From NCBI RefSeq assembly GCF_019448085.1, contig NZ_JAGFNZ010000004.1, forward strand, positions 62,001 to 126,000: DNA of 64,000 nt, written 5' to 3'. Origin of the DNA: Caproiciproducens faecalis. GTDB lineage: Bacteria > Bacillota > Clostridia > Oscillospirales > Acutalibacteraceae. Shown here one piece after another: positions 17,869 through 22,495 of the stretch; position 1 is the first letter of the stretch, and every line of letters starts with the position of its first letter. The notes under the pieces are model-generated. The model saw only the letters and a program-made list of their open reading frames with translations, ran no database searches and was not told the origin of the DNA. A program made the translations under genes and the position numbers.

Positions 17869-18586
17869 TTATGATCTGCGGGAACGGTCGTTGCAGCCGC
17901 AGTCGCTGACTTTGGGCGGGAAAAACTCGTCGGTCGGAAACTCGATGCGGCGGAACATATCGCATGGATCGTCTGATGTAGTGACACATTCTTTTTCCGG
18001 GATACAGAAGTCGTACGCGGGAATCAGCATTTGCACATTTCTGACAATTTGAACAATTGTAAAGATACCAATTGTAGCATAAACAGTTCGATTGGATGCA
18101 AAGTCCAGCTGACCGCCGAAATGTCTGCAGATTGAGTCGGGAATACGGCAGCAGCTCTCATTGCAATGCGACTGGCAGTCGCAGATTCGTGCCGACAGGC
18201 AAATCGGCTCCGCAACCTGACAGGTTGCTTTCGGGAGCACGTCGCCGCAGACAGAATTTGGGCCGTCGATGTCGTCCTGCGTGCAATCGGAAGTGAACAT
18301 TTTTACATTGCCCTCACTGCCATACAAAATTACCCTTTTGCTGAATATGGATACACCATTTACAATAGCGGGGCTTGTGGCCAACGGACAAAATACGTCC
18401 ACACACACATCGAAGAAAAAGGTCATATCTACCGAATAAAAGCCTTTGTTAAATGGTACCGGCTCCAAATCAAGGAACACAGTAATGACTTCGGCGTTTC
18501 TGAGCCTGACGTTTGTTGCATGTTCAATCAGGTCGTGCTTATCCGGTGGGAAATAAACCCTTAAATCTTCAAGGCAATCTTTATCA
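17869..18586 (-). CDS. 3' part of a conserved clostridial gene interrupted by the recombinase element
   Basis: The frame encodes SDKDCLEDLRVYFPPDKHD, then VFLDLEPVPFNKGFYSVDM, SKRVILYGSEGNVKMF and a Cys-rich C-terminus ending CGCNDRSRRS, about 238 residues. I recall this family (VYDSC-x-DKDCLEDLRV...EPVPFNRGFY) as a conserved, sporulation-associated protein of Clostridia with no proven function. The first usable start inside is a GTG at 18480, without a ribosome site, in the middle of conserved sequence. The frame is open up to 18651 with no ATG, GTG or TTG before 18480. Joined at TGA (18584-18586) to the piece at 22132-22029 it makes a full gene. Confidence 0.8.
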
Positions 18587-18721
18587 GAAGAGTAACCGTG
18601 ATAGAATAGTACTCTTTTAAATTGATTGAATGCAAAGCAGGGGTTGAAGTTTTATTTGTTATTATCATTTATCGTTAATTCTAAGATACCCGGCAGTGCT
18701 ATGTATCGTTACAGGGCAGAT

Positions 18722-18955
18722 TTATGCTGGCACATTCAACAGGATATACTGTTTGACCGGGCATTCATCGATACTTTCATAATCTTTGTATTCTCCGGTT
18801 TCAGAGACTCCTTCAAGGTGGAGAAATGCTGGGTGCATGAACTTGTCGTCAATCTGGCTTGCAACAATGTGCAATTCGATTAAGCCCATTCCGTCTTTTT
18901 CAATTTCCATTATTTTTTCTTTCAAAAGCTTGAGGTTTACGCTAATACTTTGCAT
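18722..18955 (-). CDS. small hypothetical protein (77 aa)
   Basis: This 77-residue acidic protein starts MQSISVNLKLLKEKIMEIEK and contains GLIELHIVASQIDDKF. I do not recognise a family. The start at 18955 has AAAGGA ten bases upstream; the frame is open 13 codons further but lacks a ribosome site. It has no signal or membrane segment. It is the last gene inside the element. The next 253 bases up to the acetyltransferase gene are AT-rich and I see no gene there. Confidence 0.6.
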   Translation of the reverse strand: MQSISVNLKLLKEKIMEIEKDGMGLIELHIVASQIDDKFMHPAFLHLEGVSETGEYKDYESIDECPVKQYILLNVPA

Positions 18956-19208
18956 TTCAAAAACATCCTTTTTTTTTAATTGGTTGCGCAACATTTGTAA
19001 TTTTAAAGGAAATGTTCTAAAATTGCAATAGCGAAAAAAGTCGCAATTATAGAAGTTTTAACGAATGGAAAAAATAGGATAAATAAACAAAATATATGAC
19101 ATAACTAAAATTTTTTTATGAAAAATTCGGAGATTAATTGCTGGAATGAGGACATTATAATCACAAAGAAAAATAAAATTCACATGTTCTCTGTCGAAGT
19201 GAGATGGC

Positions 19209-19496
19209 TTATGACTTGTTTGTTCGAATATCGCAATATTCAGGGTGACTGTCAAACCATTTGACGGCATACGAACAGGTGAGTACTGCCTTGCGCTTTT
19301 GCTCTCTGAGCAAAGAGGCGGAAGCTTCCATCAGTTTGCCGGCGACACCCTGTCCCCGAAGAGAATCGTCCACAAAAGTATGGTCGATGTTTACCGTCTG
19401 TTCATCCATGTCCGGAAAGGTGACCTCGGCAATCACCTGGTGAGATTCATTTTCAGCGTATATACGGTTTTTTTCATAGATCAGTTCCAATTTCAT
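19209..19496 (-). CDS. GNAT-fold N-acetyltransferase, YjdJ type
   Basis: This is a short, single-domain acetyltransferase of about 95 residues. It has the family pattern VIAEVTFPD, then IDHTFVDDSLRGQGVAGKLM (acetyl-CoA loop, with R-G-Q-G-V-A-G-K) and a C-terminal YAVKWFDSHPEY. This small class is widespread with unknown acceptor. The start is uncertain. An AGGAGG sits almost on top of the ATG at 19496, so the TTG at 19490 may be used; upstream ATGs to 19535 lack a site. It is cargo of the recombinase element. Confidence 0.8.
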   Translation of the reverse strand: MKLELIYEKNRIYAENESHQVIAEVTFPDMDEQTVNIDHTFVDDSLRGQGVAGKLMEASASLLREQKRKAVLTCSYAVKWFDSHPEYCDIRTNKS

Positions 19497-19549
19497 TCCT
19501 CCTGTCTGTTTGTAGTATGCCATTTTTTCTTTCATTTTGTCAATGTGTA

Positions 19550-21037
19550 TTATGAATGAATTGGTTTTAAGTAAACTTCCAGCGTAAACTCTCCCGGTTT
19601 CGCACCCTTTTCTTTATTGTAAATAATTTTCCCGATCATTGCTTTTAGAAGCAGGTTCTTTTTTTGTGTAGATGCGGCACCATAAACCTCCAGCAGGGTT
19701 ACTGCTTTTTTACTGTCATTAGGACAGTCGATAGGTAAGGAAGAAGTCGTTGTGTCTTTCATCTTTTGCAGCCTGTTTTCTTTTTCCTTCAGATATGTCT
19801 GACGCTTCAGAAAGGTGTCCAGGTCATACACGCCCTGCTCCAGAAGATCGTGCAGTTTTCCAATTTGCCCCGCAGTGGTTTTGATTTCCGACTCTACGGT
19901 ATTGAGGAATTCCCTGTTTTCCGATTTCGGCCGCAGCGCGGGATTTTTCTGTGAAATCCTGTACTCGCTCATTCTGCTTTTCAGTTCGTGCACAACCGCG
20001 TCTTCGATCAGGGACAGAGCGGAGGACACCATGCAGCCTGGTTTCTGACATAGCAGGTAGGCTCCTCCCTTACGGATCACCTGGCGCTGCATCGGTGCGC
20101 CGCAGTGCGCGCAGTAGACCAGACCGGCGAGCGGGTTTTCCACACTGCCCGTATTTGCCGGCGGATGGGAGCGACAGGCTGCCATTTTCTGTGCCTGCTC
20201 AAAAATTTCATCCTGTACGATGGGCGGATGGATTCCTGCTACAACAGTCCATCTGTCCGGTGAGTTCTGAATGGTGATCTGCTTGCTGTTTCCCTTCGCA
20301 CCCTTACGGATCTGTGTTTTCCGGTTCCAGACGATTTTGCCTGTGTAGACGGGGTTGTGGAGGATTTTCATGACGGATGACCGGCCGAATTTTTCAGAGC
20401 GGTGGGGTTTGGCCCCCATGGCGTTAACCGTGTCGGCAATATGCTGGCAGCCCAGTCCCTTGTTGACGTACAGGTCAAACATCATCCGCACGAAACGGGC
20501 CTCTTCCTCGCAAACCGCTAGTGTAGGCCGCTTGTTGACTGTTGTTTTCACATATCCGTAAGGCGCGTTGGCAACATACCCTCCGTCCGCAATGGTTTTT
20601 TTAATCCCCCGCTGCATCCGGCGTTTAATCGCTTTGAGCTCCTGCCGGGCCATAAAGGTTTCAAATTCGGAGTAGGTTTCATCCATTTCGTTGTTCAGGT
20701 CGTAAATCTTGCGCGGCGTAATGATTTTTGTATCCGCATTTTTCAGCGTTTCAAGAATGACCCCCTGGTCGCTCATGGCACCGCGCCCCAGACGGTCAAT
20801 ATCCATGCACAGAACCGCGTCGTATTCGCCTCGCTCCACGTCGGTAAGCAGCTGCAGCATCTGCGGGCGTGCATACAGGGATTCGCCGGAAACGACTTCT
20901 TCATAAATTTTTGTTATGTCAAGATTGTTTTTAGCGGCGAACTCCTGCAGGGTTTCCCTGTGGCGCTTCAAGGTTTCGTCCACGGTATCACTCAGTTCCT
21001 CCGCCCGGCTTTTGCGCAGATAAATTGCTGTAATCAT
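19550..21037 (-). CDS. large serine recombinase (site-specific)
   Basis: This is 495 residues. The N-terminal resolvase domain starts MITAIYLRKSRAEE with nucleophile Ser10, then VVSGESLYARPQM and CMDIDRLGRGAMSDQG (catalytic Arg). The recombinase domain has APYGYVK and SSVMKILHNPVYTGKIVWNRK, then a zinc ribbon (YCAHCGAPM...LLCQKPGC) and a coiled coil (about 390-440). This is the layout of phage integrases and of SpoIVCA, which excises the B. subtilis skin element. Lying inside the split gene's insert, it is the obvious enzyme for excision. No phage structural genes accompany it. Confidence 0.95.
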   Translation of the reverse strand: MITAIYLRKSRAEELSDTVDETLKRHRETLQEFAAKNNLDITKIYEEVVSGESLYARPQMLQLLTDVERGEYDAVLCMDIDRLGRGAMSDQGVILETLKNADTKIITPRKIYDLNNEMDETYSEFETFMARQELKAIKRRMQRGIKKTIADGGYVANAPYGYVKTTVNKRPTLAVCEEEARFVRMMFDLYVNKGLGCQHIADTVNAMGAKPHRSEKFGRSSVMKILHNPVYTGKIVWNRKTQIRKGAKGNSKQITIQNSPDRWTVVAGIHPPIVQDEIFEQAQKMAACRSHPPANTGSVENPLAGLVYCAHCGAPMQRQVIRKGGAYLLCQKPGCMVSSALSLIEDAVVHELKSRMSEYRISQKNPALRPKSENREFLNTVESEIKTTAGQIGKLHDLLEQGVYDLDTFLKRQTYLKEKENRLQKMKDTTTSSLPIDCPNDSKKAVTLLEVYGAASTQKKNLLLKAMIGKIIYNKEKGAKPGEFTLEVYLKPIHS

Positions 21038-21091
21038 TTTATCACCGCTTTCCTTACCTATATTTATGGAAGAAACAGATCAATATTCCAG

Positions 21092-21124
21092 CCTCCGAAT
21101 CCAGAAGGATGCGGAGGTTTTTTT
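21092..21124 (+). terminator. hairpin with T-run ahead of the small plus-strand genes
   Basis: CCTCCG (21092-21097) pairs with CGGAGG (21112-21117), an inner ATCC pairs with GGAT, and seven T follow. It lies between the divergent recombinase and the small genes, so it insulates them or acts as a leader attenuator. Confidence 0.7.
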
Positions 21125-21196
21125 ATTGTGCCGGAACCCCGTTCTGCACGAATAGGACAAACATCGGCATTCATATTTTTTATAGAGGTGATGCAT

Positions 21197-21376
21197 ATGC
21201 GCGACACAGGGAAGCCGATTGTCACCGTACATATTTTGCCGGGAACAGACGAAGAGATTGCGTGCAACAGAGAAAATCTGCGTTATGTAACGGAACAGAT
21301 CTGCACCGAAATAAGCGGATCGGAAACCAGCGTAACGATTGACTGGGAAGGTGTCGGCGAAAAAAAGTCCGATTGA
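21197..21376 (+). CDS. small element-encoded protein (59 aa)
   Basis: This 59-residue acidic protein begins MRDTGKPIVTVHILPG and includes CTEISGSETSVTIDWEGVG. The ribosome site AGAGGTG is six bases before the ATG at 21197, making this start better than the ATG at 21191. No family is recognised. It is the first of three closely packed plus-strand genes divergent from the recombinase, a place where recombination directionality factors are often found. That role is a guess from position only. Confidence 0.65.
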   Translation: MRDTGKPIVTVHILPGTDEEIACNRENLRYVTEQICTEISGSETSVTIDWEGVGEKKSD

Positions 21377-21393
21377 AAGAGGGGGAAGACCCT

Positions 21394-21528
21394 ATGCAAT
21401 ACAAGGTGCTTCAGGGTTATATGGCGCTTTGCCGTTTTTATGGATGGAAACCGACGTGGGCCGGACTCAAAGCGTTTAACCGCGGTGACCGCGCGAGAAG
21501 TCTGAAAAGGGGGGAGCCAAAAAAATGA
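21394..21528 (+). CDS. very small element-encoded protein (44 aa)
   Basis: This 44-residue basic protein starts MQYKVLQGYMALCRFYGWKP and ends RARSLKRGEPKK. It has a strong GAGGGGG ribosome site. Its stop overlaps the next start (ATGA), so they are coupled. High Arg/Lys content suggests nucleic-acid binding; no family recognised. Confidence 0.6.
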   Translation: MQYKVLQGYMALCRFYGWKPTWAGLKAFNRGDRARSLKRGEPKK

Positions 21529-21677
21529 TGTGCGCGTTATGCAGAAAATGCAAGAGTGGGTTTGACAACAGGGTCTGCCGCCATTTTTGTTCCGCCTACA
21601 AACGTGCTTTTGAACGCAATGTGGAACGGCAGCTGGACGAAACGCTGTTTCGCCGTCTTGCCAGAATCTCCAAATAG
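21525..21677 (+). CDS. small Cys-rich, possibly zinc-binding protein (50 aa)
   Basis: This 50-residue protein begins MMCALCRKCKSG and continues VCRHFCSAYKRAF. Cysteines and a histidine spaced C-x2-C-x2-C...C-x-H-x-C look like a metal site. An Arg-rich amphipathic tail (ERQLDETLFRRLARISK) follows. The GGGGGAG ribosome site lies in the end of the previous gene. A DNA-binding accessory role for the recombinase is possible but unproven. Confidence 0.62.
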   Translation: MMCALCRKCKSGFDNRVCRHFCSAYKRAFERNVERQLDETLFRRLARISK

Positions 21678-21695
21678 ACTGGTGTGAAAAAACAG

Positions 21696-21717
21696 AGCCG
21701 TCCCACACGGGGCGGCT
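21696..21717. terminator. terminator between convergent small genes
   Basis: AGCCGTCCC pairs with GGGGCGGCT around loop ACAC, with one G-T pair. On the minus strand it leads into CTGTTTTTTC, serving the gene at 21726. Confidence 0.75.
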
Positions 21718-21725
21718 GTCGTTCT

Positions 21726-21911
21726 TCATTGATTTTTCATATACTCTGTAATGCGTTCGTGAAAATTTTCATAGGAGCTGCTTCCGTTCAATAGCTTCAG
21801 CTGCATATCATCCGACAGAGAGAAGAAATAGTCCCTTACTTTTCTGTCCCGTTCGGGCAGATTCGAAGGAAATGGGAATTCGTAAAATCCGGTATAATCC
21901 AAACCAATCAC
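21726..21911 (-). CDS. small hypothetical protein (about 58-61 aa)
   Basis: The protein contains DYTGFYEFPFPSNLPERDRK, VRDYFFSLSDDMQLKLL and SSYENFHERITEYM. It reads like a real acidic, helical protein but I cannot name it. The start is either GTG at 21911 or, better placed behind GAGGTGAT, TTG at 21902. It is the first minus-strand gene inside the element, next to the 5' junction. Confidence 0.6.
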   Translation of the reverse strand: MIGLDYTGFYEFPFPSNLPERDRKVRDYFFSLSDDMQLKLLNGSSSYENFHERITEYMKNQ

Positions 21912-22018
21912 CTCAGGAATAGTGTATGACTATTTTACAAAAACATGCAGAATTTTCCTGTCATTTTGTTTTAGAACCAGCGCAGCGGACGTTCAGCTGC
22001 CGCTTGTATCAAGCGTGT

Positions 22019-22132
22019 TTACCGTTCTTCACTGCATGAGTCGTATACGCGCAGTCCGTCTATGCATACAGCTTCATTAAAATTTCCTGAATTTTGCACA
22101 TTTGCAGATGTTTCCGAGCAATTTCCATCCAT
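22019..22132 (-). CDS. 5' part of the interrupted conserved gene, with intact start signals
   Basis: ATG at 22132 follows a perfect AGGAGG with eight-base spacing. It encodes MDGNCSETSANVQNSGNFNE, then AVCIDGLRVYDSC, and stops four codons later. CIDxxRVYDSC is the N-terminal motif of the family whose remaining part lies at 17869-18586 on the same strand. Only codons 1-34 belong to the family; SEER-stop comes from the element end. CATAAAATG at 22188-22180 resembles a late-sporulation sigma-factor -10, but I could not match a -35. The interval 22133-22495 is otherwise AT-rich leader and promoter DNA without a visible gene. Confidence 0.82.
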   Translation of the reverse strand: MDGNCSETSANVQNSGNFNEAVCIDGLRVYDSCSEER

Positions 22133-22495
22133 AAAATAATCCTCCTAACACATTTAGTGAAACCTTTGTTTCTCAATACCATTTTATGGCGGCTGTTTCA
22201 TTGTGTTACAGAAATATTTTCCCATCACGGCTAAGTTTTTTCAAAATAGTAAAAAACTAATAAATTAATATATAATAAAAAATATATAGTATTAATAATC
22301 ATTAAAATATAGTAATAATCTATTTTAAATGAGCAATAAATACAAAATATGATTATTTCAATCCGATTAATTCGTCTTTTTATAAAATCTTTACTATTTA
22401 TATTTTATTAAGATTCTGTTATAATTGTGTTAACCAAATGTAAGAAATTCATCAGGTAAGAATAATCACTCGACAGGACGAAATGAGGTTATCTA

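Follow-up and report, generated by a model that had tools for sequence, protein, structure and literature searches.

In the stretch of Caproiciproducens faecalis DNA analysed here (64,000 nucleotides of contig NZ_JAGFNZ010000004.1, positions 62,001 to 126,000; hereafter the window), a gene of 272 codons is split after codon 34 by a 3,445-bp element that encodes a large serine recombinase. The window genome, referred to as G000, is 3.0 Mb in 8 contigs. The pieces of the gene and the core dinucleotides of the attachment sites, placed by junction comparison, are as follows.

22031..22132, minus strand: 5' piece of the split gene, codons 1-34, with an AGGAGG ribosome site upstream; it precedes the same junction in eight genomes of the genus
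18586..22030, minus strand: intervening element, 3,445 bp
17869..18585, minus strand: 3' piece of the split gene, codons 35-272 (238 codons) and the stop, of an orphan family
22029..22030, minus strand: core dinucleotide GA of attL
18584..18585, minus strand: core dinucleotide GA of attR

A preliminary description of the locus had given the coordinates of the two pieces, their strand order, the TGA common to the junctions, the 3,445-bp distance and an open 272-codon join, and all of these were correct on recomputation. In the computed join, a crossover at the common GA yields a single open frame of 272 codons. The junction had been likened to a family consensus, and alignment A3 of 56 whole relatives indeed reads RVYDSCSDKDCLEDLRVYF at this place. 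The family has no Pfam or NCBIfam match and no PDB relative by sequence. Two traits of gene-intervening elements are found here: judging from the join and from the whole relatives, precise excision would restore one open reading frame (ORF) in frame, and a serine recombinase is encoded within the element.

The locus was compared among G000 and ten other genomes of the genus, eleven in all. Wherever it was seen, the surroundings are constant: uvrD/pcrA flanks the locus on one side, and genes for a PiT transporter and a DUF47 protein, together with thyX, lie on the opposite side. Eight of the eleven (G000, G001, G002, G003, G004, G007, G008 and G010) have both halves of the gene, split after the same codon. 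Their elements range from 2.7 to 3.9 kb, and the recombinases of the other seven are 60-76% identical to that of the window. In G006 a recombinase and the 3' half are present at the same codon, on a contig that yielded no 5' half; no 3' half was obtained from the fragmented assembly of G009. In G005, whose assembly is 64% complete, the gene is whole. Comparison with an intact homologue had been set beforehand as a check of the predicted join, and the G005 gene runs without a gap exactly there, with 228 of 271 aligned residues matching the joined window protein.

The recombinase has no internal stop at any of nine genus loci, and its median dN/dS is roughly 0.14 (17 of 36 pairs). The 3' half, which has no start codon of its own, has no stop in ten of ten genus copies (G005 included), with a median of about 0.08 (30 of 45 pairs). 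The corresponding value for the flanking PiT gene is about 0.04 (25 of 36 pairs). All these figures are rough because only pairs with dS below 2 were kept and the many pairs saturated at silent sites were dropped. Low dN/dS and the lack of stops in both the recombinase and the 3' half argue against passive inactivation. The preliminary description had named passive insertion as its alternative, which fits poorly with a value of 0.08 on a start-less half. The best explanation is that the element has been kept by descent at one codon in the genus since its insertion.

Both forms of the gene occur in the assembly of G425 (loci L150, L151 and L152), a genome from another family of the order. The gene is whole on contig C1, and contig C6, of 42,272 bp, has exactly 95 bp of the left gene flank at its start and exactly 95 bp of the right one at its end. 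On C1 the two flanks overlap by the 2-bp core GC. C6 carries a recombinase 54% identical to that of the window. Precise excision in part of the population is the simplest reading of this assembly. The genus comparison, the join in G005 and the two forms in G425 together bear out the frame restoration, the site specificity and the maintained recombinase proposed in the preliminary description.

That description had also put the crossover dinucleotide at GA. In the rebuilt circle site of the window the half-site symmetry peaks at GA, at 13 of 25 positions, compared with 3 to 9 in the four neighbouring registers. GA is common to attL and attR in all eight genus genomes with both junctions, while the base preceding it differs between attL and attR in two of them (G007 and G008); a crossover at GA is therefore supported. 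Of the 16 elements tabulated, 14 share GA as their core, and by eye G298 fits it as well. In G425 the core is GC. Since the G425 host codon at that place begins with GC, the core follows the host gene. The half-sites are palindromic about the core in most of the tabulated elements. Those of the circle site match their reverse complement at 13 of 22 positions in the window and at up to 21 of 22 in G382, against 5 of 22 in the attB control. A short common core with inverted-repeat half-sites, another trait of gene-intervening elements, is present here, weakly in G008.

Read from attL, the element contains ORF61, a divergent trio of small ORFs, the large serine recombinase, a GNAT acetyltransferase and ORF90. 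None of the genes in its 3,445 bp was recognisable as a phage structural gene. The genes and the putative promoters are listed below.

21921..21948, minus strand: sigma-E-type promoter upstream of ORF61, GCATGTT, 13 bp, CATACACT, one mismatch
21726..21911, minus strand: ORF61, first gene inside attL, candidate recombination directionality factor; more than 70% identical in G010, G002, G004 and G008
21525..21677, plus strand: small divergent cysteine-rich ORF, 50 aa; in seven genus elements
21394..21528, plus strand: small divergent ORF, 44 aa; in five genus elements
21191..21376, plus strand: small divergent ORF, 61 aa, second candidate directionality factor; similar frame in nine of nine genus elements
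21061..21088, minus strand: weak sigma-E-like promoter upstream of the recombinase, two mismatches; similar in G010 (two) and G002 (three)
19550..21037, minus strand: large serine recombinase, 495 aa, with Resolvase, Recombinase and zinc-ribbon domains
19209..19535, minus strand: GNAT-type acetyltransferase (PF14542), cargo; in five genus elements
18722..18994, minus strand: ORF90, conserved cargo of no assigned function; in seven genus elements

The best phage relatives of the recombinase are 41% identical to it (40.7% in the top match) and the best viral contigs 38%. For ORF61 the median dN/dS is 0.10, from the 7 usable pairs of 15. The idea that ORF61 serves as directionality factor throughout the genus was set aside, since it is at the locus only in G000, G010, G002, G004 and G008 and weakly in G006; the ORF61 homologue of G003 sits on a different contig from the split locus. 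The divergent ORF at 21191, found in all nine genus elements, is the alternative candidate.

When scored against the sigma-E consensus used here, the motif before ORF61 is the sole match with at most one mismatch on both strands of the 64-kb window. It is kept in all five genus genomes with a closely similar ORF61, more than 70% identical (the window genome, G010, G002, G004 and G008). Shuffled sequences gave an equally good match once in 300 trials for the window and never in 300 for each of the other four. Near attL, and without ORF61, a sigma-E match is found in G007 with one mismatch and in G001 with two.

The host gene has a putative promoter of its own.

22180..22205, minus strand: sigma-K-like promoter of the host gene, CACA, 13 bp, CATAAAATG; in nine of nine genus copies

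All nine genus upstream regions examined, including that of the whole gene in G005, share CACA-13 bp-CATAAAAT(G/A). The upstream regions of 74 whole relatives were compared with 386 other upstream regions from the same loci. Of the 74 relatives, 61 have the sigma-K-type core (AC, 12-16 bp, CATANNNTA) with no more than one mismatch, compared with 78 of the 386 controls (p=1e-24); a stricter form is present in 19 and 25, respectively. A sigma-E promoter on the host gene was considered and rejected, as it is not enriched (9/74 vs 30/386), and the sigma-A pattern shows no enrichment in this comparison. A looser sigma-G-like pattern allowing up to two mismatches is somewhat enriched (68/74 vs 280/386), probably because its -10 shares CAT. 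The claim is therefore limited to a mother-cell-type signature, mainly in the -10, and this motif signature suggests a mother-cell (sigma-K/E-type) promoter on the host gene. A TGTAACA just upstream of this promoter (22188-22220 of the window), inside a block shared in the genus, resembles the start of KRTAACARK, which is described as the SpoIIID motif of Clostridioides difficile (PMC5025042).

Searching 395 genomes of the order that are at least 90% complete with a profile from 16 whole proteins, we found the gene in 327 and not in 68. It is missing from 11 of 20 genomes lacking SpoIVA and from 57 of 375 bearing it (Fisher p=9e-5), a modest co-occurrence taken from a hand-counted table in which 48 gene-less genomes were assigned by absence among the matches listed. 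The product may be a spore-envelope protein.

Two other genes are split in G000. Its sigK stops early at ...GISRSYVS, and its terminal residues, SYVS-RIEKKSLGALYKRFTK, are encoded some 7 kb away, 20 bp past the end of a serine recombinase gene (G000:C1:570838-578553, L223). In G002, G004 and G008 the sigK match breaks off at this same model position, and in the other seven it is full-length; the tail was located in G000 alone, 6-7 kb having been covered for G002, G004 and G008. The window gene is not sigK, so that its element is not a skin in the strict sense of an insertion in sigK. The second gene is a PF05067 gene, which we take to be cotJC, encoding a spore-coat catalase. In G000 about 9.6 kb separate its pieces, and a recombinase gene ends 45 bp before the tail (C2:286367-296574; L199 1368-11575). 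Among the eleven genus genomes it is split in eight (G000, G001, G002, G003, G004, G007, G008 and G010), in three of them twice, into three pieces (G003, G007 and G008). The pieces are 8 to 164 kb apart in the other congeners, and a recombinase beside them was looked for outside G002, G004 and G010. cotJC is whole in G006, is represented in G009 by its 3' part alone, beside a recombinase, and has no match in G005. For a second recombinase of G001, splitting of the neighbouring cphA was considered, but cphA is intact there and cotJC is the gene in pieces. A whole gene presumably for a cyanophycin synthetase and another presumably for a cyanophycinase adjoin this recombinase (L064 7740-13083). 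Beside the other recombinases of G000 (C1:20-23 kb, C1:769-772 kb and C2:420 kb), no split gene was recognised in the ORF lists.

On this evidence we consider it likely, with good confidence, that the window carries a skin-like sporulation gene-intervening element whose host gene is rebuilt by excision in the mother cell. The large serine recombinase would have inserted the element at GA inside a mother-cell sporulation gene, leaving the gene split in vegetative cells. In the mother cell, sigma-E would switch on a small element protein, most likely ORF61, which would turn the recombinase toward excision. Recombination between attL and attR would then release the element as a circle and restore the 272-codon frame downstream of the gene's own sigma-K/E-type promoter. 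As the mother cell is bound to die, such a deletion would be free of germ-line cost. ORF61 appears to have the same layout as CD1234, the small sigma-E-controlled directionality factor reported to restrict excision of the C. difficile sigK skin to the mother cell (PMC5025042). The developmental excision proposed in the preliminary description gains from the promoter motifs, the modest SpoIVA co-occurrence and the sigK and cotJC splits in the same genome; its sporulation timing, like the role of ORF61, stays a prediction from these signs.

Several observations weigh against this explanation. The two forms in G425 could come from a mixture of strains. ORF61 was not found near attL in G001, G003 and G007; G003 and G006 lack the sigma-E motif before ORF61, and in G003 there is no sigma-E match near attL either. 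As general evidence, a sigma-E promoter on the recombinase itself was rejected, since conservation is lacking among the other genus copies. With up to one mismatch allowed, no sigma-E match was seen in the sigK or cotJC element of G000, so that their timing signals, if any, differ. The half-site symmetry of G008 is weak (8 of 22, the lowest among the correctly registered rows), and nine SpoIVA-lacking genomes of the survey still carry the gene.

An ordinary mobile element, excised at a low rate in any cell and independently of sporulation so that a minority of cells have the gene whole (active lysogeny without developmental control), is unlikely but is the strongest competitor. The recombinase belongs to a phage-integrase-like family, as its best phage match indicates, the G425 element is 42 kb, and the promoter motif of the recombinase itself is unconserved, all of which would suit such an element. 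It would leave the sigma-E motif that precedes ORF61 in five genus genomes, the mother-cell-type promoter of the host gene, the splitting of sigK and cotJC in the same genome and the persistence at one codon across most of the genus without explanation. Still less probable is a passive insertion, in which a gene that the cell can spare has been knocked out by a dead or selfish element. The gene is not universally needed, given its absence from 68 of the 395 order genomes, and the recombinases of some other splits (L228 and L230, below) are truncated; however, purifying selection acts throughout the genus on the start-less 3' half as well as on the recombinase, the 5' half has been kept together with its promoter, and the join is exact in G005 and G425. 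Both halves are conserved, as would also be expected if they were translated separately and cooperated without DNA joining, but this is extremely improbable because no ribosome site was seen at the first start codon of the 3' half (GTG, 18480), the 5' half is merely 34 codons and the halves meet exactly where whole relatives are continuous.

To follow the split gene across the order, 48 genomes were re-searched, comprising those that gave multiple or partial matches plus a few taken from an earlier search. In at least 24 of the 327 gene-bearing genomes the pieces are more than 1 kb apart on one contig. Ten of these are split at the site of the window, eleven near residue 156 and one near residue 76; the remaining two are G037 (the window's site and a second site) and G370 (near residue 240). 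G425, with both forms, is an additional case. In nine further genomes the pieces are on separate contigs, an arrangement that breaks between contigs could produce by themselves. These counts are lower bounds, as very short 5' pieces may be missed. A serine-recombinase match stands beside a piece in all 21 examined of the 24 genomes. Recombinases at the residue-156 site form a clade of their own (support 100/99, four rows), and those at the window's site fall within another large clade, alongside the cotJC recombinases of the genus. A single clade for the window-site recombinases was rejected, as the tree forces two changes. Separate clades at different sites imply that unrelated recombinase lines entered the same gene. 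From this tree, the gene is one that at least two recombinase lineages have invaded, at several sites, repeatedly and independently across the order. A sample of the phylum gave a match in 39 of 249 genomes, mostly weak and partial outside the order.

Some of these loci differ in structure. G370 (C25:10199-13591 and C6:9847) has the split near residue 240 besides one at the window's site. The residue-156 elements of G308, G318, G362 and G184 (L228, L229, L230 and L231) are only 1.4-1.9 kb and hold little beyond a serine recombinase, the frame of which is shortened to 306 codons in L228 and 331 in L230. The cargo of the G022 element (L061 4640-12300) presumably comprises ferrous-iron uptake genes and a metalloregulator, and that of the G049 element (L062 9570-13290) what we take to be glucosamine-phosphate deaminase and deacetylase genes. 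In G037, by locus reading, the gene is in three pieces (L059 4529-4624 and 16635-16787; L060 14633-15232), the middle one inverted, with two recombinases at its edges. Its rebuilding would need an inversion as well as excision, or the contig is misassembled.

A broader possibility, which we hold tentatively and at somewhat less than even chances, is that the mother cell in this genus carries out programmed editing of its genome at several sites. No fewer than three mother-cell genes (sigK, cotJC and the orphan gene) would be kept in pieces and rebuilt at each sporulation by serine recombinases of more than one kind, with sigma-E starting the order, and the G037 gene would be unscrambled by inversion and excision. 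If this were true, G037 would be a bacterial counterpart of gene unscrambling in ciliates.

We compared the element with the known sporulation gene-intervening elements skin, gin, SP-beta, vfbin and yin. Published hosts of such elements, as far as these reports list them, are sigK, spsM, spoVFB, gerE and yabG (PMC5595907, PMC10747680). Like the C. difficile sigK skin, the window element places a large serine recombinase within a split, presumably sporulation-related gene; it differs in its host gene, in its size of 3.4 kb with no phage structural genes seen, and in that its directionality factor is a candidate. It resembles gin in gerE of Bacillus cereus, which is not a prophage and combines a serine recombinase and a directionality factor (a candidate in the window) with inverted repeats about a central dinucleotide (PMC5595907). 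However, gin is 28.6 kb with three recombinases, whereas the window element has one and occupies an orphan gene in most of a genus. Precise excision of the SP-beta prophage rebuilds the spore-envelope gene spsM in Bacillus subtilis (PMC4191935), a parallel to the envelope role that the window product may have; unlike the window element, SP-beta is an active prophage, and spsM is unrelated to the window gene. For yin in yabG, a single culture has the integrated form alongside the excised one, a parallel to the G425 assembly, but yin is described from one strain (PMC10747680), whereas the split in the window is a genus-wide trait. The titles and abstract openings listed by a literature search held no mention of the window gene or of a split cotJC, three listed papers in which the word cotJC occurs not being among those read.

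The kind of element is already known, and what is new is this host gene, together with its unusual spread and company. The finding adds to the hosts of such elements an unnamed, widely conserved gene that has been invaded repeatedly across the order, and it points to a spore gene worth naming. Long retention at one codon, with a small gene apparently driven by sigma-E, makes it testable why such an element persists, as a tamed timer or as a tolerated parasite. Congeners with an intact gene such as G005, set against those with a split one, provide the means for such a test.

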